Positions 1 through 9,463 of a stretch of DNA of 64,000 nt are shown here, piece after piece. Positions within the stretch are counted from its first letter, which is position 1, and each line of letters begins with the position of its first letter. The notes below the pieces were generated by a model. It had not been told where the DNA came from and did not search any database. It saw only the letters and a list, made by a program, of their open reading frames with translations. Source of the stretch: Gracilimonas mengyeensis (GTDB lineage: Bacteria > Bacteroidota > Rhodothermia > Balneolales > Balneolaceae); contig NZ_FXTP01000001.1 in NCBI RefSeq assembly GCF_900182705.1, positions 248,001 to 312,000 on the forward strand, written 5' to 3'. The translations under genes were made by a program, and so were the position numbers.

Positions 1-2
1 AG

Positions 3-1277
3 GCAGACAATAAAAAAGAAGCTCAGCTTAAGGTAGACCGCCTTTCCCGTACCAACGGACTTTCCATTAAGGCCCTGGATGAGAAAAAAATGTACCAGTA
101 TAAGGTGCAACGGCCCGGTAAACCCAAAGTGACCGGCGAGCAGGAAGCGTATAGCAAAGAAGAGCTGGAAAAGGCGCTGGTGAAGCTGGGTTATAAAGTC
201 ATTAGCATCAATAAAAAGCTGTTCGACTTTAAGGGCGGCGTACCGATGCAAGAGGTGGTGACCTTTATTCGCCTTTCCTCTGATCTGCTAAACCAACAGC
301 TTTCCTATGATGAAATTTTGAATCTCCTGTATGAGGATACGCAGAATAAGCGCATGAAGGAGGTTATTAAAACCATCCAGAAGGACTTAAAAGATGGAAA
401 GGAAGGTTCCGAGGTATATGGCAAGCACGAAGATGTTTTTGGAAAGTTTGCGGCCTATATGCTAAGTGTAGCTTCTACTTCTGGTAATATGGCTTTGGTA
501 TTTGAAAGTACAGCCAAGTTCCTGGAACGGGATGCGGATTTTAAGAAAAATCTCCGTCGAGCCCTGATGATGCCCGCAGTTACGGTTTTGGCTGTAATTG
601 GGGTGGTTTTGTTTTATGTAGGATATATTTTTCCTGCCACAGCCGAGTTATTTGTTGAGATGGACATCACCCTGCCACCGATGACGGCGGCTACCCTGGA
701 GCTGAGTTACTGGCTCAGGGATAACTGGATTATGATTATGCTGTCCTTTGTCATACCTATCGCAGGCTTTATATACTATATAAAAACACCCAAAGGGAAA
801 CTTAACCTTGATAAATATATTATTCATATTCCTGTTATTGGTGATCTGCTCCACAAAACCAGTATTGAGATTTTTTCCCGCGTATTCTATACGCTGTACA
901 GTGGATCAGGGCAAAATATTGAAGTGATAAAGGTAGCAGCTGAGGCCTGCCGGAATAAATACATGGAAAAACAGATTAAAGAAGTGGCCATTAAAATGAT
1001 GTTGAAGGACGGGGCCGGTCTGATTGAGTCCCTGGAAACCACCGGTGTGTTTACTAAAACGGCCTTAAGTCGGTTTAGGTTAGGTGCCGAGTCAGGAGCC
1101 TTGCGGGAAAATGCCAAGCAGCTGGCCGAGTATTACGAGATTCAAACTACTTATAAAATGCAGTCGGTGATTGACATCATAAACCTGTTTATCAACTTGT
1201 TTATCATGATTGCCCTGATTGCTATTACCATCGTCTCGTCCGAGTCTGCTATTATCCAGCCAAATACCGGAATGTAA
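3..1277 (+). CDS. Type II secretion/type IV pilus inner-membrane platform protein (GspF/PilC family), 5' end cut by window
   Basis: This is a polytopic platform protein that sits under the pilus or pseudopilus and couples the assembly ATPase to pilin polymerisation. The frame is open from the window edge without a stop. The ATG at 90 has no clear ribosome binding site, and the residues before it look coding, so the true start probably lies upstream. Counting from the ATG at 90, hydrophobic segments fall near residues 157-182, 211-230 and 361-384. This is the usual three-membrane-segment arrangement, with two cytoplasmic GspF repeats of which the second ends in a Gly-Ala-Glu-Ser-Gly motif. About 395 residues from the ATG matches the family length. 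The pilB-like ATPase follows 12 bp downstream, so they are probably cotranscribed. Family assignment is secure; pilus versus secretion role is not. Confidence 0.88.
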   Translation, partial: ADNKKEAQLKVDRLSRTNGLSIKALDEKKMYQYKVQRPGKPKVTGEQEAYSKEELEKALVKLGYKVISINKKLFDFKGGVPMQEVVTFIRLSSDLLNQQLSYDEILNLLYEDTQNKRMKEVIKTIQKDLKDGKEGSEVYGKHEDVFGKFAAYMLSVASTSGNMALVFESTAKFLERDADFKKNLRRALMMPAVTVLAVIGVVLFYVGYIFPATAELFVEMDITLPPMTAATLELSYWLRDNWIMIMLSFVIPIAGFIYYIKTPKGKLNLDKYIIHIPVIGDLLHKTSIEIFSRVFYTLYSGSGQNIEVIKVAAEACRNKYMEKQIKEVAIKMMLKDGAGLIESLETTGVFTKTALSRFRLGAESGALRENAKQLAEYYEIQTTYKMQSVIDIINLFINLFIMIALIAITIVSSESAIIQPNTGM

Positions 1278-1289
1278 TTGTTGATATAA

Positions 1290-3065
1290 ATGGGAAAGAT
1301 TAACATACGGAGACATATTGGCGACATCCTGGTAAATAAAGGAGTGATCACGGAAGATCAGCTCCAGAAGGGATTGGCTATACTTGCCGAAGAGCCCAAG
1401 GAAAGCAACCGTCGGCTGGGGCAGATCCTCTTTCAAGACTTAGGCCTGAACCGGCATATGATCATGAAAGAGATTGCCAAGATCTACGCTTTCCGTGAGG
1501 TATTGAAGGATGTAGAGGAGGTGCCTGGTGAAGTACTGGATCACATCAAAGAGAATATTGAAGACCTACCCAAAGAAGTGGTAGATGAACTGGTCCATCA
1601 CAAAGCACTTCCGTATCAAAAAACCAATAACTCAATAACTATTGCTGCAGCTGATCCCTCTGATCCCAATATTCAGGGGGTGATCAATAAGATCAATTTT
1701 AAGCAGACCGAGCTTGTCTACTGTAAGTACGAGGTTATTGAAGAGATCCTCTCTAAAGTATATGAGCAGAAGAATGAATTCCTGGATCTGTTGGAAGAGA
1801 TTGATTACGAAGAGCCCGATCTCGACAAAACTGAAGAGGAGATTGATGAGGAAGAAATAGATGCCGAAATCAATCAAAGTATGCTCAACTCCCTGGTAGA
1901 GGGGATGCTGGTTGAATCGGTGCGTCAGGGCGTGAGTGATATGCACATTGTGCCCAGTTCGCCGACTACCACAGATATTCGTTTTAGGATTGATGGTAAA
2001 CTGCAGCTTTGGTATCAACAAAAAAATGTGAAGCCGGAAGCCATTTCGGCCGTTATTAAGGATAAAACCCGTAATGTAGACCGTTTTGAGCGGGATGCCT
2101 CACAGGATGGTTTTATTCAGCGGCAGGTTGATGGTTTTGGTATTCGGTACCGCGTGTCGATCATGCCCATTGTAGGGAAACAGTTCGACCGCAAGTTTGA
2201 GTCTATTGTAATTCGGGTTCTGGATGACAGAAACGTAATTCGCGACCTGGATAAGCTGGGTTTACAGAAGGTTGCCAAACAAAATTTTATAAAATCAATC
2301 CAACAGCCTTCAGGCATCGTAATCATAACCGGACCTACCGGTAGTGGTAAATCAACCACGCTGGTAGCCGCCTTGTATTATGTAATTGATCCAACCAAAA
2401 ACGTACTTACGGTGGAGGAACCGGTAGAATATATCATTGAAGGGGCCCGGCAGCTTAAAATTAGCCATCACATGACTTTCGATCAGTCTATGAGAGGGAT
2501 TTTACGGCATGACCCGGATATTGTATTGGTAGGTGAGATCCGTGATTTGAAAACGGCAGAGATTGCTATCAAGCTGGCGAATACTGGTCACCTCACGTTC
2601 TCAACCTTGCACACCAATGATGCGCCAAGTGCTATCTCGAGGCTTTATAAGATGGGGGTAGAACCTTTCCTGATCGCTAACGCCGTGAACCTGGTAGTAG
2701 CTCAGCGACTGATTCGCCGCTTATGCAACAATTGTAAAGAGGCCTTTAAACCCCATCCTGAGACAGCCAAAGGCATTGGTTTTACCGATGAGGAAATTGA
2801 GAACACCACTTTCTATAAAGCAGTAGGATGTGATAAATGCAACGATACCGGCTACAAAGGTCGGGCGGGTATCCATGAGGCTCTATATTTCTCTAAAGAA
2901 ATTAAGAAAATGATTTTGGATGCCGGTGGAGATATTGACGAAGGTGCCATAAAAGACTTAGCGATGTCTCAGGGCATGTTAACGCTTCGTGGTTCCGGCC
3001 GTGAGCGAGTGAAAGAAGGTATTACCACCATAGAAGAAATTGTAGCAGTTACCATTGAGGATTAA
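1290..3065 (+). CDS. pilB: Assembly ATPase, GspE/PilB family
   Basis: This is a hexameric cytoplasmic ATPase powering extension of a type IV pilus or type II pseudopilus. The protein has 591 residues. An N-terminal GspE/MshE-like domain (about 1-155) is followed by an acidic linker (about 160-195) and the ATPase core. The Walker A motif GPTGSGKST is at about 348-356. The Asp box reads EEPVEY and is intact. The Walker B region reads VLVGEIRD, and a His box follows (TLHTND). A tetracysteine zinc site, CNNC near 479 and CDKC near 514, is typical of extension ATPases and absent from PilT. It follows the GspF-like gene by 12 bp and precedes a cyclic-nucleotide-binding-fold gene. All catalytic motifs are present, so it is expected to be active. 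The PilB versus GspE name rests on context. Confidence 0.9.
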   Translation: MGKINIRRHIGDILVNKGVITEDQLQKGLAILAEEPKESNRRLGQILFQDLGLNRHMIMKEIAKIYAFREVLKDVEEVPGEVLDHIKENIEDLPKEVVDELVHHKALPYQKTNNSITIAAADPSDPNIQGVINKINFKQTELVYCKYEVIEEILSKVYEQKNEFLDLLEEIDYEEPDLDKTEEEIDEEEIDAEINQSMLNSLVEGMLVESVRQGVSDMHIVPSSPTTTDIRFRIDGKLQLWYQQKNVKPEAISAVIKDKTRNVDRFERDASQDGFIQRQVDGFGIRYRVSIMPIVGKQFDRKFESIVIRVLDDRNVIRDLDKLGLQKVAKQNFIKSIQQPSGIVIITGPTGSGKSTTLVAALYYVIDPTKNVLTVEEPVEYIIEGARQLKISHHMTFDQSMRGILRHDPDIVLVGEIRDLKTAEIAIKLANTGHLTFSTLHTNDAPSAISRLYKMGVEPFLIANAVNLVVAQRLIRRLCNNCKEAFKPHPETAKGIGFTDEEIENTTFYKAVGCDKCNDTGYKGRAGIHEALYFSKEIKKMILDAGGDIDEGAIKDLAMSQGMLTLRGSGRERVKEGITTIEEIVAVTIED

Positions 3066-3100
3066 CATGCATATTTTTTGGATATTAACTACTAACTTGA

Positions 3101-3118
3101 AACATATTTATATATGTT
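3101..3118. promoter_or_regulatory. Short inverted repeat upstream of the cNMP-binding-fold gene
   Basis: AACATAT (3101-3107) and ATATGTT (3112-3118) form a perfect 7-bp inverted repeat with a 4-base spacer, about 30 bp before the start at 3149. It could be an operator or a weak hairpin. There is no T-run typical of a terminator, and AT-rich palindromes also arise by chance. Confidence 0.25.
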
Positions 3119-3148
3119 AAAGCTGGTACAACAACACAGGGATTTAGT

Positions 3149-3655
3149 ATGAGTAGCGAAATAACTAATTCTGGCGATGACATAATGAGCGATTACATCA
3201 AAAAGTTTTTGAAGGAGCCACCTATGCTTCTAAAAAACTTTCATTATGAAGATGTGCTGGAATTTCTTCAGTTAGGAAAAGAAGAACGATTTATGAGCGA
3301 TGAAATCATCCTCAACGAATCGGAGTATGTGAATTCGGCATACCTTGTGGCCGAAGGCAGAGTTAGTATATGGAAGGATAACATACAGTTGGCTACTCTT
3401 GGGGAAGGAAATTTTTTGGGTGAAGCCTTCCTTTTCAGCAAGAACAGCAGAATGGCAAAAGTTACTGCAGAAGGGGACAGCGTACTGTTACGATACGAAC
3501 GGTATGAAGCACTTAATTTTTTCCGGCGAAAACCAGAAAAGCTTTTCAATATATTCACAAAAAATATCATCGAAATACAGCAGCGCAAAATCAGCAATAT
3601 GAATGTTCAGTTATTAAATCTGAAGAAACGCTTGCTTAATGACTCCAATTGGTAA
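3149..3655 (+). CDS. Cyclic nucleotide-binding-fold regulatory protein
   Basis: A 168-residue cytoplasmic protein that is essentially one cNMP-binding beta-roll (about residues 35-145). The stretch with Gly-Glu-Gly, then Phe-Leu-Gly-Glu-Ala and Arg-Met-Ala-Lys-Val, aligns with the phosphate-binding cassette (consensus FGE-(x)n-RxAxV). The Glu and Arg that contact cyclic nucleotide therefore appear to be present. There is no helix-turn-helix, so it is not a CRP-type transcription factor. A start at 3149 is preceded by an AGGGA-like site; an in-frame ATG at 3185 is an alternative. It lies between the extension-type and retraction-type ATPase genes of the pilus operon, which suggests it tunes motor activity. 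That role is inference from position only. Confidence 0.75.
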   Translation: MSSEITNSGDDIMSDYIKKFLKEPPMLLKNFHYEDVLEFLQLGKEERFMSDEIILNESEYVNSAYLVAEGRVSIWKDNIQLATLGEGNFLGEAFLFSKNSRMAKVTAEGDSVLLRYERYEALNFFRRKPEKLFNIFTKNIIEIQQRKISNMNVQLLNLKKRLLNDSNW

Positions 3656-3807
3656 TCATTTAAATTCGGTTCTGGAAGCAGGACTGAAATAGATGTGTTT
3701 GTTATATTAAAATAATTTAATTTTTTTTGTAACATCTTGCTGGCTCAGGTATCTAATACATATCTGGAAACCGGCAACTGGTTATCATCAACACGATTAG
3801 GCTTTAT

Positions 3808-5049
3808 ATGGAGGCGGCAACTACAACTGCGATTTCAAAACTGGTAGATCCGGTTTTACAGCAAATTCCCCGTACGGTACGAGGGCTGGACCGCCATATG
3901 CGTATCGGAAATATTGTTGAGGAGCTGGATGAAGAGCACCGTTTGGCACTCACTGACATACTGGATTCTTATCTCAAACGGATGCTTAAGAATGAAGCAT
4001 CGGATATTGATTTGGGCGGCCCCGGTTGTAAAGGGCGGGTTTGGTACCGCATATATGGCGATAAGAAGCCGGCTGAAACTCCTACAGATCTTTCTCTCGA
4101 TGAAACCAATGTGCTGCTCCATAACGCTATTTTACCTTCTCAGCGAGAGAAACTGATAAAAGATAAAAACCTCGATTTTTCTTATTCCATTGAACTGGAA
4201 GACGGCAGCAGTCAGCGCTTCCGGGCAGACATGTATTTTGATCTGGAACACCTGGCTTTAAACATGCGGAAGATTGATAATACCATCCGCCCGTTTAAGA
4301 ATTTGGGTGCTCATACCGAAGTGGCAAAGGCGCTCAGTCTGAAGTATTACAAATATGGCCTCACCTTAATCACGGGTATCACCGGTTCAGGTAAATCATC
4401 CACCCTGGATACTATCATTGACGCCAACAACCGGACGGTAGACTCTCACATTGTGATTATTGCTTCTCCGGTTGAATTGATTCATGAACCCGTACGTTCG
4501 GTTGTACGCCATCGTGAAGTAGGACGGGATGTGCCTTCCTTTAAAGAAGGAGCGATACAATCGCTGCGTCAGGATCCCGATATCATTGTAATAGGTGAGC
4601 TTCGCGACCCGGAAACCATTATGACAGCCCTCGAAATAACAGATTCCGGGCACAAGACCTTCGGAACCTTGCACACATCTTCTGCGATGGAAAGCATCGA
4701 ACGTATTTTAGGTGAAGTACCTACTGAAGAGCAAAACAGGGTACGAACGCGTCTGGCAGATGTATTAACGTGTGTGATTAGCCAGAAACTAGTGCCAAGC
4801 CTGGATGGAAAACGGATTTTGGCTAAAGAAGTTTTGCTTGTAAATTCATCCGTCAAAGCGGCAATTAGAAATAACAACGTGGGCGAAATTTACCAAATGC
4901 TGATGGAAGGCAGCGAGCGGGGCATGAATACCATGGAGCAAGATCTTAAACGATTGTACTCGGAAGGCATCATTGCCAAAGAAACGGCAATCAATCACGC
5001 CAATAACAAAACCAAAATGGTACAACTGCTAAGCGAAGTGAATTACTAA
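3808..5049 (+). CDS. PilT-like ATPase with altered Asp box
   Basis: A secretion ATPase of the PilT/GspE superfamily with 413 residues, longer than typical PilT (about 345-370). Its N-terminal PAS-like domain precedes a RecA core with Walker A GITGSGKSST at about 190-199, Walker B VIGELRD around 261-267, and the His box GTLHTSS. The PilT-type C-terminal motif GMNTMEQ is present, and the Cys4 zinc site of PilB is missing. These features point to a retraction-type motor. The Asp box, normally Thr-Ile-Glu-Asp-Pro-Ile-Glu, reads Ile-Ile-Ala-Ser-Pro-Val-Glu at about residues 217-223, so both leading acidic residues are lost. It lies 6 bp before the PilM-PilN gene. A modified or slow motor, or a regulatory paralogue, is possible. 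Confidence 0.85.
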   Translation: MEAATTTAISKLVDPVLQQIPRTVRGLDRHMRIGNIVEELDEEHRLALTDILDSYLKRMLKNEASDIDLGGPGCKGRVWYRIYGDKKPAETPTDLSLDETNVLLHNAILPSQREKLIKDKNLDFSYSIELEDGSSQRFRADMYFDLEHLALNMRKIDNTIRPFKNLGAHTEVAKALSLKYYKYGLTLITGITGSGKSSTLDTIIDANNRTVDSHIVIIASPVELIHEPVRSVVRHREVGRDVPSFKEGAIQSLRQDPDIIVIGELRDPETIMTALEITDSGHKTFGTLHTSSAMESIERILGEVPTEEQNRVRTRLADVLTCVISQKLVPSLDGKRILAKEVLLVNSSVKAAIRNNNVGEIYQMLMEGSERGMNTMEQDLKRLYSEGIIAKETAINHANNKTKMVQLLSEVNY

Positions 5050-5055
5050 AGACGC

Positions 5056-6786
5056 ATGATCTCAGGAAAAACATATACGGGCTTGGTGGTAGATGGCGAT
5101 GCGCTTAAAGTGGCCATGGTTAAGGTTACAGGTAAAAAGTTAACCTTGGTGGGCATAGATAAAGTACGCCTGGTTGAAAACCTTAAAGAAGAAGGAATGC
5201 CGGCCACTATTGATGAAGATGGAGGCATTTTTGATTCTGTAGATGATCCCGTTGACAGTAGTGAGATTTTCGGTTTTGAAACGGAGGAAGAGGTAGAAGA
5301 TGCTGATGATGAACTGAAGCTGGAAGAAGTTGATGACGATATCGATGATCTTGGTTTTGACGACCTTGAGGATTCCGATCAAATTGTAGACTCGGATATG
5401 GTGGATGAAACCGAGACCCCGGCCTCCAATGAACTCCTGCTCTACAATTTATTTAGCCTGATAGATGCAAAGCGCATCAATTTGGGATTGAGCATTCCTG
5501 CCGGACAAACGATTTTTCAAATTCTTAAAGACAGCAACTTTTCCAAAACCAAGCGCAAAGATTTGGAAGTCATCGTGAATGACCGTCTGGAGGCTCTGCA
5601 TGGCGTTCCTAAAGCTGAAGATTACTATTCCTATTCCGTAGCGGATGATGGTACGCTTTTGCTTACTTCTATTGATGAAGAACCCGGAATTCTAAACCTT
5701 GTTAACAACACGCTGGAAATCTACCGCGGCAAGCTCTTTGTTGAGGATGTTGTACCAGATGAAGTGGCGTTGGTTGGCCTGGTTAGGGCTAATTATGAAC
5801 TTGAAGAAACGACCATAACGGGAGTCATTCAGTTTGGGGAGAAGAAGACCCGTATTATTTTTATGAAGGGTGAACAGCTTTGGATTGTATCCCCAATTAT
5901 AACCGAAGGTATTAAAGATCAGCGGTTCCTAAGTACAGTTTTTAGTAAGATATTATTCCAGTTAGATACGGGCGAAGTACCTAATCTGGACCGGCTTATT
6001 TTATGCAACAACTCTCTGGGTGAAAAAGCAGTCACCTTTTTTGAAGACCGTTTTCAGGATGTAGAAATCACAGAGTTTGAATTTTCGGATGAAATATTTG
6101 ATGCGGAAGGCATTAACAAATCTTCCTTGCCTGCTTTTACTACGGCTATAGGTGCTGCCTGGGCAGCCTCCGGATTTCAGCATAACAAATTCCCGGATAT
6201 ATCATTCTTACCTGATTATGTGCAGGAAAGGCAAAAGATATTTAAGCTTCAATGGCACGGGATTTTATTGCTGCTTCTCATTTTACTAACTCCCATTGTA
6301 TCCAATCATTTTTACACGCAAAATGCAGCTGAAATAAACCGTCTTGAAACAGACATCAGCCAGTTAAATGCGCAGATAGAGTCTTTAGAACCTACCGTAC
6401 AGGAATATAACCGCATCAGCTCCGAGCTTGAGCAAATACAAGCTCAGCTTCAATTGCTATCGGAATTAAGCCAGGGAACCCTGCGATGGAGTACCAACCT
6501 GGACCTTATAAATAACGGTGTTGATGATGTGAATATGGTATGGCTCACTTCCATGAACCAAAGCGATGGTGGAGTAGAAATTAACGGCATTGCCACTCGT
6601 CGGAGTGCCATAGCCGATGTTGCGGAGATATTTGATCGTGCTACATTACTGAATGTATCAACCTCCGAAATACGTGAACAAGACGTATATAATTTCCGGT
6701 ATCAGATTCAGGACTTCTTTGATACGGAAGACATCTATACGCCGGAAGCAGTGCAAGGAATAGAAGACTTAATCCAACAGCCATAA
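5056..6786 (+). CDS. PilM-PilN fusion protein (pilus alignment complex)
   Basis: A 576-residue protein that appears to join two usually separate alignment-complex subunits. Residues 1-390 resemble the actin-like PilM/FtsA fold, starting with a short GLVVDGDALKVA-type strand pair and interrupted by a very acidic insertion (about 58-120). A single hydrophobic segment at about 400-420 follows. A coiled coil (about 425-470) and a small periplasmic alpha/beta domain ending in PTS-rich residues match PilN topology. In most bacteria PilM is cytoplasmic and grips the short cytoplasmic tail of PilN; fusing them fixes the stoichiometry at 1:1. It starts 6 bp after the PilT-like gene and ends 2 bp before the PilO-like start, so it sits within the operon. 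Sequence similarity is weak; the call rests on topology and neighbours. Confidence 0.7.
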   Translation: MISGKTYTGLVVDGDALKVAMVKVTGKKLTLVGIDKVRLVENLKEEGMPATIDEDGGIFDSVDDPVDSSEIFGFETEEEVEDADDELKLEEVDDDIDDLGFDDLEDSDQIVDSDMVDETETPASNELLLYNLFSLIDAKRINLGLSIPAGQTIFQILKDSNFSKTKRKDLEVIVNDRLEALHGVPKAEDYYSYSVADDGTLLLTSIDEEPGILNLVNNTLEIYRGKLFVEDVVPDEVALVGLVRANYELEETTITGVIQFGEKKTRIIFMKGEQLWIVSPIITEGIKDQRFLSTVFSKILFQLDTGEVPNLDRLILCNNSLGEKAVTFFEDRFQDVEITEFEFSDEIFDAEGINKSSLPAFTTAIGAAWAASGFQHNKFPDISFLPDYVQERQKIFKLQWHGILLLLLILLTPIVSNHFYTQNAAEINRLETDISQLNAQIESLEPTVQEYNRISSELEQIQAQLQLLSELSQGTLRWSTNLDLINNGVDDVNMVWLTSMNQSDGGVEINGIATRRSAIADVAEIFDRATLLNVSTSEIREQDVYNFRYQIQDFFDTEDIYTPEAVQGIEDLIQQP

Positions 6787-6788
6787 AT

Positions 6789-7658
6789 TTGTCATACGCA
6801 GTACGAAATACCATCATTCTGTTAGTGACCCTTGCATTATTTGTAGGGGGCGCATTTTCCTATATCAAGTTTATCCAGGTGGCAGAGCTTGAGGAACTGG
6901 AAGAAACCTATGCCGAAAAGCAACAGGACTACCAGGAAAAACGACAAACCAGCGATGCTTTTCCCATATTGAATGAAACCTATCAGCGGGCAATAGCTAT
7001 TACCGAGAATTTCGACAAATCACTGTATCCTCATCCCACTCCGGATGATGTATACCACTACCTGGATTACATCAGTTACAGTGACACCAACTCAACCGTA
7101 TATTTTGATTTTGTATTTATAGATTCAACCGCTTCTGATCAATATGGAATCATGACGGCTGATATTAACGGATATGGCAACTACCAAAACTTTATGAATT
7201 TTATTAATAAACTGGAAAACAGTCGGTTACTTAACAAAGTATCCGGACTTTCTCTGACACCCCCCGGAGGCAGTGGGGAAGAACTGGATGAGGTCAGCTT
7301 TGGCTTTACCCTTGAGAGTTATTACCAACGGCTTGGCAACCAGCAAACCAGTTTACTGGACGATCAACTAAGCCTGAATCAAAGTATTTCTACTTTCAAT
7401 CCCTTTTATCCGCTTATACTTGCTTCGGTACCTCCAAATGAGGACAACCTGATTAATGTGGAGCAAAGTCGCTTAATAGGACTTACAAGCTCACGAGTAT
7501 TTATAGCGGATCAGGGCGGCAGTGTGCAGTCACTCAGAATAGGTGACAAGGTATATCTTGGCGAATTAAGCGAAATTGATACCGAAAATAATTCTGCTAC
7601 ATTTAATTTAAATAAAGGTGGTATCACAGAATTGGTTACCCTGGAGATAGAGCGATGA
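6789..7658 (+). CDS. PilO-like protein with C-terminal PilP-like domain
   Basis: A 289-residue inner-membrane protein. It has a TTG start, one membrane segment at about residues 8-27, a coiled-coil stretch (about 30-60), a ferredoxin-like periplasmic domain (about 70-180), and a C-terminal beta-rich segment (about 225-289). The C-terminal segment has the pattern Leu-Thr-Ser-Ser-Arg-Val-Phe then Leu-Arg-Ile-Gly-Asp, resembling the PilP/GspC HR domain that contacts the secretin. The architecture would combine PilO and PilP. The gene begins 2 bp after the PilM-PilN stop, and its own stop overlaps the secretin ATG (ATGA at 7655-7658), implying translational coupling. The PilO part follows from topology and position; the PilP part is a pattern-level inference. 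Confidence 0.62.
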   Translation: MSYAVRNTIILLVTLALFVGGAFSYIKFIQVAELEELEETYAEKQQDYQEKRQTSDAFPILNETYQRAIAITENFDKSLYPHPTPDDVYHYLDYISYSDTNSTVYFDFVFIDSTASDQYGIMTADINGYGNYQNFMNFINKLENSRLLNKVSGLSLTPPGGSGEELDEVSFGFTLESYYQRLGNQQTSLLDDQLSLNQSISTFNPFYPLILASVPPNEDNLINVEQSRLIGLTSSRVFIADQGGSVQSLRIGDKVYLGELSEIDTENNSATFNLNKGGITELVTLEIER

Positions 7659-9463
7659 AAACAGTAAAGAAAATGAGTTACGCATACAGCACGGCATTCG
7701 CCTTATTTTTATGTATGGCGGTTTTTTCAACCGGCCAGCAAGTGATGGCGCAGGAAATCATTGATCCACTCAGGGAATATACCAATCCCGAGGAAGTGGT
7801 AACCTTTGACCGAAATACCTCATACACTGAGGCTATAGAAGTAATTAACACCTTTGCGCAGGAGTTTGATGATAAGTTTATTGTTGATAACACGGCCCGA
7901 TCTGGAGAACTGGGGGTGAATTTGCCACCCATGCATTGGAAAGATGCATTGCGTTATATCCTTCGCTTTGAAAACCTCCAGCTCACAGAGTATGAAGATT
8001 TCTATGAAATCAGCGTCCCCAAAGAAGAAGCAAATGTAAGCAAACAGGCAAATGCTACCGGTGTCGGCCAGCAATCCGAAATTCTGGCCACAACCGATAC
8101 CCGTGAAGTTCGCATCAATGCTACTTTCTTTGAAGGTAACAAACGGGCATTGCAGGAAATTGGCATTGACTGGTCTACACTTACCAGCGACATACCCGAG
8201 AACCTAAGTGAATTTGTATCGGGAGAAGGGGGAGAGACAGTACCTTCTTCAACATTGAATGATCAATTTGTAGCCGTTAATTCTTTCAATGCTTCCAGCG
8301 TATCACAGAATGCCTTTAACGCGATGGTTAATTTCGGGGAATTTGGTCCTGGAATCAGTGTTCAGGCTCTTTTCAGTGCTTTTGAAGCAGATAACCTCGG
8401 TAAAGTTTTGGCCACGCCATCAATTAAAGTGGTTGACGGACAAGAAGGGAACATCCAGGTGGGACAGGATTTTTCCATCAAGCAAAGAGATATTGCCGGA
8501 AACGTTACCGACAACTTTGTAAGTACCGGTACTATCCTTACGGTCACCCCGAATATCATCACGCAAGGAGATACTTCTTTTATTTACCTTGATTTGGAGG
8601 TTGAACGTTCTACTGCCCAGCCTGATGTGGTAAGTACCATTGTGAACAAGCAGGAAGCAACAACTTCTGCTATTTTGATGGACGGTGAGTCAACCTACGT
8701 TGCCGGTTTATATCGTACAGAAGAGACCTCGGTGCGTCGCGGAGTTCCTATCCTGAAAGACTTGCCAGGCTGGTTTTTCGGTCTTCGTTACTTGTTTGGA
8801 TATAATTCCAATGACTATCTGGAAAATGAGCTTATCATCATTGTACAAGCGGAACTGATTGAACCGGTTAAAACTCGTATTTCAAACAAATTGGAAACCA
8901 AACGTGATGTATTAAACAGTACGCGTGACCGTATGCGGAATGATCTTGACCGGGTATTCGAATCCGCTGAATCACCTTTCCCACCAGAAGATGATGCAGC
9001 TGCTAAATCCCAGGATTCAGTAGCAGCTGAAGAGGAAGTTTTGGAGCCAGAAGTCACTGAAACCGAAACTACTGATGAGCCAGAGCTCACCGAAGAGCAA
9101 CAAGAAATGGCGGAAGAGCTTAGCATGCCCGTAGAACATCCCGAATTGATGATGGTGGTTCCAAAAGCCTTCGATTTAAATGAATTTTTGGAGCGACAGC
9201 AAAACGGAGAGGTAGTAGAAGAAACCGATTCTGATCTAAAGTATTTTGTGATTGGAGGATCCTTCCTGGTTCCAAGAAATGCTCAAAACTTTAAAGAAAC
9301 TTTAGCTGAAGAGGGATGGGACACACGGATTTTATTCAACCCTGAAACCCGCTTTAATTACGTAGCCTACGAGGGCTTCTCTGATTTTGATGAAGCAGTG
9401 GAAAGAACCTTGGAATTACGAGGTAGTATCAACGACGAGGCTTGGTTATTTACGCTTAGATAG
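7655..9463 (+). CDS. Secretin (PilQ/GspD family) with C-terminal SPOR-like domain
   Basis: This is an outer-membrane pore protein for pilus or secretion-substrate passage. The 602-residue precursor has a signal peptide with a likely cut after Met-Ala-Gln near residue 33. An N-domain/STN-like segment follows (about 45-125), then the secretin core (about 145-400). The core contains the conserved Val-Pro-Ile-Leu-Lys-Asp-Leu-Pro stretch and ends with Glu-Leu-Ile-Ile-Ile-Val. An acidic, Glu/Thr-rich linker (about 430-520) leads to a final 75 residues beginning Tyr-Phe-Val-Ile-Gly-Gly-Ser-Phe. This resembles a SPOR peptidoglycan-binding domain. Usual secretins carry AMIN domains at the N terminus rather than SPOR at the C terminus. 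The gene is translationally coupled to the PilO-like gene. Confidence 0.82.
   Translation: MKTVKKMSYAYSTAFALFLCMAVFSTGQQVMAQEIIDPLREYTNPEEVVTFDRNTSYTEAIEVINTFAQEFDDKFIVDNTARSGELGVNLPPMHWKDALRYILRFENLQLTEYEDFYEISVPKEEANVSKQANATGVGQQSEILATTDTREVRINATFFEGNKRALQEIGIDWSTLTSDIPENLSEFVSGEGGETVPSSTLNDQFVAVNSFNASSVSQNAFNAMVNFGEFGPGISVQALFSAFEADNLGKVLATPSIKVVDGQEGNIQVGQDFSIKQRDIAGNVTDNFVSTGTILTVTPNIITQGDTSFIYLDLEVERSTAQPDVVSTIVNKQEATTSAILMDGESTYVAGLYRTEETSVRRGVPILKDLPGWFFGLRYLFGYNSNDYLENELIIIVQAELIEPVKTRISNKLETKRDVLNSTRDRMRNDLDRVFESAESPFPPEDDAAAKSQDSVAAEEEVLEPEVTETETTDEPELTEEQQEMAEELSMPVEHPELMMVVPKAFDLNEFLERQQNGEVVEETDSDLKYFVIGGSFLVPRNAQNFKETLAEEGWDTRILFNPETRFNYVAYEGFSDFDEAVERTLELRGSINDEAWLFTLR

Follow-up and report, generated by a model that had tools for sequence, protein, structure and literature searches.

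The genome of Gracilimonas mengyeensis, a member of the Balneolaceae, contains an operon that resembles the envelope machinery of type IV filaments. It lies at the start of the 64,000-nucleotide stretch of contig 1 that was analysed (the window), and neither that window nor the neighbourhood of pilC in this genome yielded a pilin gene. The locus raises the question of what such a machine assembles, and from which subunits; the original prediction had left a pilus and a dedicated exporter side by side, with the substrate unspecified.

Anatomy and distribution of the envelope operon

Seven genes on the + strand occupy positions 3-9463 of the window, in agreement with the coordinates first proposed. 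They form a tight operon, as predicted, apart from gaps of 83 and 152 bp flanking the gene for a cyclic-nucleotide-binding (cNMP) protein. The pilC gene is clipped by the window edge, its start codon lying 61 bp further upstream (L002:15940). The features are:

1..1277, +: PilC/GspF inner-membrane platform (T2SSF, 5e-28; TIGR02120, 161 bits)
1290..3065, +: PilB assembly ATPase with an N-terminal MshEN (c-di-GMP-type) domain (TIGR02538, 453 bits, model cut-off 676 bits; MshEN, 1e-6)
3149..3655, +: cyclic-nucleotide-binding-fold protein (PF00027, 3.4e-12)
3808..5049, +: PilT retraction ATPase (TIGR01420, 306 bits, model cut-off 319)
5056..6213, +: PilM half of a PilM-PilN fusion, residues 1-386 (AlphaFold2 model; PilM, Z 24)
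6214..6786, +: PilN half of the fusion, with a membrane helix, a coiled coil and a ferredoxin-like end (PF05137, 23.4 bits, model cut-off 22.8)
6789..7373, +: PilO part (PF04350 in 12/16 homologues, best 1e-8)
7374..7658, +: C-terminal tail of the PilO protein, a conserved domain, possibly PilP/GspC-like
7655..9226, +: PilQ secretin lacking AMIN (PF00263, 1.7e-28)
9227..9463, +: SPOR domain at the secretin C-terminus (PF05036 in 7/16 homologues, best 1.6e-8; alignment)

Family scans bore out the calls of PilC, PilB, the cNMP-binding protein and PilT. PilB, PilC, PilT and a secretin, the only one in the genome, are all present, as are the type IVa alignment-complex proteins PilM, recognized by its fold, and PilN and PilO, recognized by Pfam matches within their families. 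The MshEN domain of PilB and the adjacent cNMP protein suggest that the machine is under nucleotide control.

The 576-residue protein was modelled with AlphaFold2 (pLDDT 74.8) and proved to be PilM followed by PilN in one chain, as originally proposed. Its N-terminal part adopts the PilM fold (Foldseek E 2.6e-12), and in a VIA comparison it scored Z 24.1 (5eou) and 24.0 (2ych) against PilM versus 19.6 against FtsA. We therefore regard this half, which also contains a low-confidence acidic insert (residues 46-119), as actin-like. The 289-residue protein had been described as PilO with a PilP-like tail. The PilO assignment held in 12 of 16 homologues; in profile comparison the tail reached an hhalign probability of 14%, and the operon has no separate pilP gene. 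The conserved tail could be a PilP/GspC-like domain. Fusions of this kind would fix the stoichiometry of their parts.

The secretin was predicted to end in a SPOR-like domain, and its family supports that view: SPOR was matched in 7 of 16 homologues, the tail could be aligned through all 16, and AMIN gave no match at E 0.1 in any of them. The tail of the window's own secretin falls below Pfam significance by itself and is assigned through alignment to these homologues. The tail probably binds denuded peptidoglycan and would anchor the secretin there, with some doubt arising from the side of the membrane that its C-terminus faces. In Pseudomonas, the AMIN domains of PilQ recognize denuded peptidoglycan (PMC5285504). 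The closest likeness is Legionella LspD, the only type II secretin that PMC9239104 names as having its own SPOR peptidoglycan-binding domain; there the domain is N-terminal, before N0, whereas in G. mengyeensis it is C-terminal, after an acidic linker.

A survey of relatives, which the original prediction had proposed, found the gene order and the fusions again in genomes from across the class and from families elsewhere in the phylum. Within the Balneolaceae, 21 loci share both, a few of them ending at contig ends. Another 20 loci, in 20 genomes of other families of the class and phylum, keep PilB, PilT, PilM-PilN, PilO and PilQ within the stretch covered; most of them lack the cNMP gene and the SPOR tail. 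Such recurrence argues that the order is not due to chance. PilT is conserved across the surveyed loci of both groups. Among the loci examined, a cNMP gene at this place in the operon occurs only in the Balneolaceae and one sister family. The SPOR tail is restricted to most Balneolaceae, in which secretin frames span ~615-665 residues, versus mostly ~410-510 in other families, where most secretins are short.

In some families, response regulators and large sensor-like proteins follow the secretin gene (L055, L058, L061, L064 and L065), and regulation therefore appears to differ by lineage.

Pilin genes, start sites and the prepilin peptidase

For type IV filaments in general, removal of the leader by a dedicated prepilin peptidase counts as a defining step, and Glu5 as almost a defining feature. 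It had been suggested that pilins with a GFxxxE-type signal be sought upstream of the window. A family-model search detected no N_methyl pilins in the G. mengyeensis genome, and the pilins that are present are leaderless. A single major-pilin gene, matched by our major-pilin alignment A2 (E 1.6e-45), lies on the same contig 4.9 kb beyond the window end (L109:5864-6295, contig 1:316864-317295). Two three-gene sets of minor pilins are found on contig 11 (L068:6003-8399 and L068:9017-11295), and a K-like alignment identifies two relatives in the genome, each the last gene of its set. In all pilins of this genome the membrane helix begins almost at the first residue ('MGQQQLLLVILVTIIVG...'). The earlier statement that no pilin is visible thus holds for the window and fails for the genome. 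In many relatives, one or two major-pilin genes lie directly upstream of pilC, and other families have short ORFs that open with a hydrophobic helix, sited either upstream of pilC or in the pilB-pilT interval. Among cultured relatives, Balneola sp. EhC07 carries both operon and pilin (L014), and Gracilimonas amylolytica LA399 carries the operon (L006).

That these proteins are pilins was supported by both predicted structure and sequence profile. The major pilin of a relative was modelled (pLDDT 89.7) with an N-terminal helix of 54 residues and a beta sheet. Foldseek alone returned no significant match; in the VIA comparison type IV pilins filled the first 17 rows (Z 9.3 to 5.2), and unrelated structures scored at or below 4.9. 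A profile of the pilins searched against all PDB sequences gave type IV pilins as its first seven matches (best 2.7e-4) in one consistent register; those matches that are numbered as mature chains set profile position 9 equal to mature position 6. The full-length pilins 1oqw and 3sok likewise place mature residue 1 at residue 4 of the model. By this register the invariant Gly17 matches Gly14 of canonical pilins, and Leu takes the place of Glu5.

To count residues ahead of the mature N-terminus, we took the earliest possible start codon and applied no motif filter. On that count, mature +1 is preceded by exactly three residues, M-G-Q or a variant, in every one of the 62 distinct major pilins. 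Canonical pilins from the same collection, which served as a control, have at least 11. In most of the 62 genes a stop codon in the same frame lies only a few codons further upstream, and no other start codon is available; misannotation of the start site was therefore rejected. In the 29 minor pilins examined, the hydrophobic segment begins at residue 3-8, and these proteins may also start M-N, M-S or M-H. Members share 85% identity over their first five residues; for canonical leaders the figure is 28%. The class III signal peptide of type IVa pilins, a leader ending in Gly ahead of a helix with Glu5, is missing from these proteins.

No A24 prepilin peptidase was detected in this genome, a 33-contig draft assembly that is 97.5% complete, by three models (PF01478, A3 and A8), a negative result only as good as those models. 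Where the phylum has canonical systems, these models do pick up A24, divergent forms included; A8, for instance, recovers the enzymes of families f10 and f19, which are divergent. An enzyme overlooked by Pfam was rejected as an explanation, the two further models also being negative here. Across a sample of the phylum, leaderless pilins were present in 55 of 148 genomes, a count that leaves out one further match at E 0.004; all 55 have a secretin, and 48 lack A24. Each of the remaining seven has a second, canonical secretin and N_methyl pilins. The class was sampled with 164 genomes; leaderless pilins occur in 114, of which no more than 15 show an A24 match (two of these weak).

Two genomes (G046, locus L110; G078, locus L115) contain isolated canonical N_methyl pilin genes and no detectable A24; these genes apparently survive from a second system that was lost.

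A pilus weighed against other products

Given a major pilin and two minor-pilin sets in the genome, a pilus is the likelier product, and the choice between pilus and exporter is largely answered. We consider it quite probable that the seven genes specify the envelope machinery of a dynamic, type IVa-like pilus, whose subunits are the leaderless, mature-like pilins encoded elsewhere in the genome. Leaderless pilins and operon machine would then make one filament. In outline, PilC, PilM-PilN and PilO would form the platform and alignment complex, PilQ the outer-membrane pore, and PilB would extend the pilus, with retraction implied by the presence of PilT.

The pilins are translated as M-G-Q or M-A-N followed at once by the assembly helix, and so would enter the membrane mature-like, essentially lacking a cytoplasmic tail. 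In canonical systems that state is reached by removal of the leader on the cytoplasmic side, which leaves a pilin without a cytoplasmic domain (PMC4471445). Subunits born in this form would need neither cleavage nor N-methylation by a prepilin peptidase. With Gly or Ala at residue 2, the initiator Met of the major pilins is predicted to be removed by methionine aminopeptidase; several Met-Asn minor pilins would probably retain it. Glu5 mutants form no homopolymeric pili in model systems (PMC4471445), and assembly of the leaderless pilins must tolerate its absence. As the leader is absent and the cutting enzyme was not found, filaments apparently assemble without a cleavage step. It is likely that the lineage (the Balneolaceae, their class and other families in the phylum) has given up prepilin processing, its leaderless pilins, free of Glu5 and N-methylation, being assembled by PilB, PilC and PilT with PilM-PilN, PilO and PilQ.

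Several observations speak against a pilus: the pilin genes lie outside the operon in this genome, Glu5 is absent, and Foldseek by itself gave the pilin no significant match. A fixed exporter resembling a type II secretion system (T2SS) would also fit the C-terminal SPOR tail; in it, leaderless pseudopilins would act as a short periplasmic piston and form no surface pilus. The minor-pilin sets do resemble I/J/K pseudopilins, and related Bacteroidota systems have been called T2SS (PMC5553014). That label, however, belongs to a different, A24-linked system. Type II secretion is characterized by GspO-processed pseudopilins and no retraction ATPase; here PilT is present and conserved, A24 was not found, and PilB prefers the pilus model (453 bits) over GspE (416 bits). 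We judge an exporter to be unlikely.

Two other explanations concern the pilins themselves. If Gly2 were the remnant of the conserved Gly(-1), an unrecognized peptidase might cut, for example, after it, and the system would be a conventional one with a very short leader. This is quite improbable: the register puts mature +1 at residue 4 and so leaves Gly2 outside position -1, conservation peaks over residues 1-5, all three A24 models were negative, and minor pilins can have Asn, Ser or His in place of Gly2. That the MGQQQ proteins are ordinary secreted proteins carrying a Sec signal peptide, as their hydrophobic N-terminus and a weak MacB_PCD match (0.0016, below the cut-off) might suggest, is hardly credible. 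A basic n-region is absent (net charge 0 in 20/20) and the N-terminus is the best-conserved part, findings on which a Sec signal peptide was rejected; the pilin fold, the profile matches and the pil-operon neighbourhood in relatives also contradict it. The type IVa-like pilus remains the reading that we prefer.

Known systems and the genes beside the minor pilins

The machine shares PilB, PilC, PilT, PilM, PilN, PilO, a secretin and a pilin fold with the conserved Gly14 position with the type IVa pili of Pseudomonas, Myxococcus and Thermus. It differs in its fused PilM-PilN, in having SPOR instead of AMIN in the secretin, and in lacking the leader, Gly(-1), Glu5 and the prepilin peptidase. Since it appears to work like a type IVa pilus, yet the class III signal peptide and prepilin peptidase are missing, we set it apart as a variant. 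The T2SS of Bacteroidota (Cytophaga hutchinsonii, PMC5553014) and the canonical second systems of some relatives (G065, G077, G139 and G143) also have a secretin, a GspE/F-type ATPase and platform, and pilin-like subunits. Unlike in the leaderless system, their prepilins, GFSLTE-type or related, carry leaders, and an A24 peptidase is encoded alongside.

In the 2013 genome paper on Melioribacter roseus, pilT, pilQ, pilB and pilC were reported, pilA and pilD were missing, and the pilus was judged incomplete (PMC3534657). Relatives from the same phylum carry leaderless pilins that a search of that kind would miss, and such pilins could explain the absence of pilA and pilD. A search of the literature, outside preprints and most subscription journals, found no mention of leaderless pilins, the MGQQQ sequence or prepilin-peptidase-independent pili; the novelty of leaderless pilins is not fully established. 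If our interpretation is correct, a natural, conserved family without cleavage or Glu5 would mean that neither is intrinsically required, would offer a clean system for testing the roles of cleavage, N-methylation and Glu5, and would explain the pil gene sets called incomplete in these bacteria. Pili in much of the phylum would escape searches that look for the class III motif or for A24.

The minor-pilin region on contig 11 has several further features. The K-like minor pilin of the first set (L068:7059-8399) carries DUF4900 (1.9e-12), a match suggesting that this Pfam family, so far without a function, may be a minor-pilin domain. Directly upstream of the two sets, and divergent from them, are genes for two methyl-accepting chemotaxis proteins (L068:1564-5608), and the pilus may thus be under chemosensory control. 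Three small secreted proteins are encoded after the minor pilins (L068:11472-13158), the first with a DUF4402 match (8e-8) and the second with a weak one; proteins of this type could be pilus-associated adhesins.
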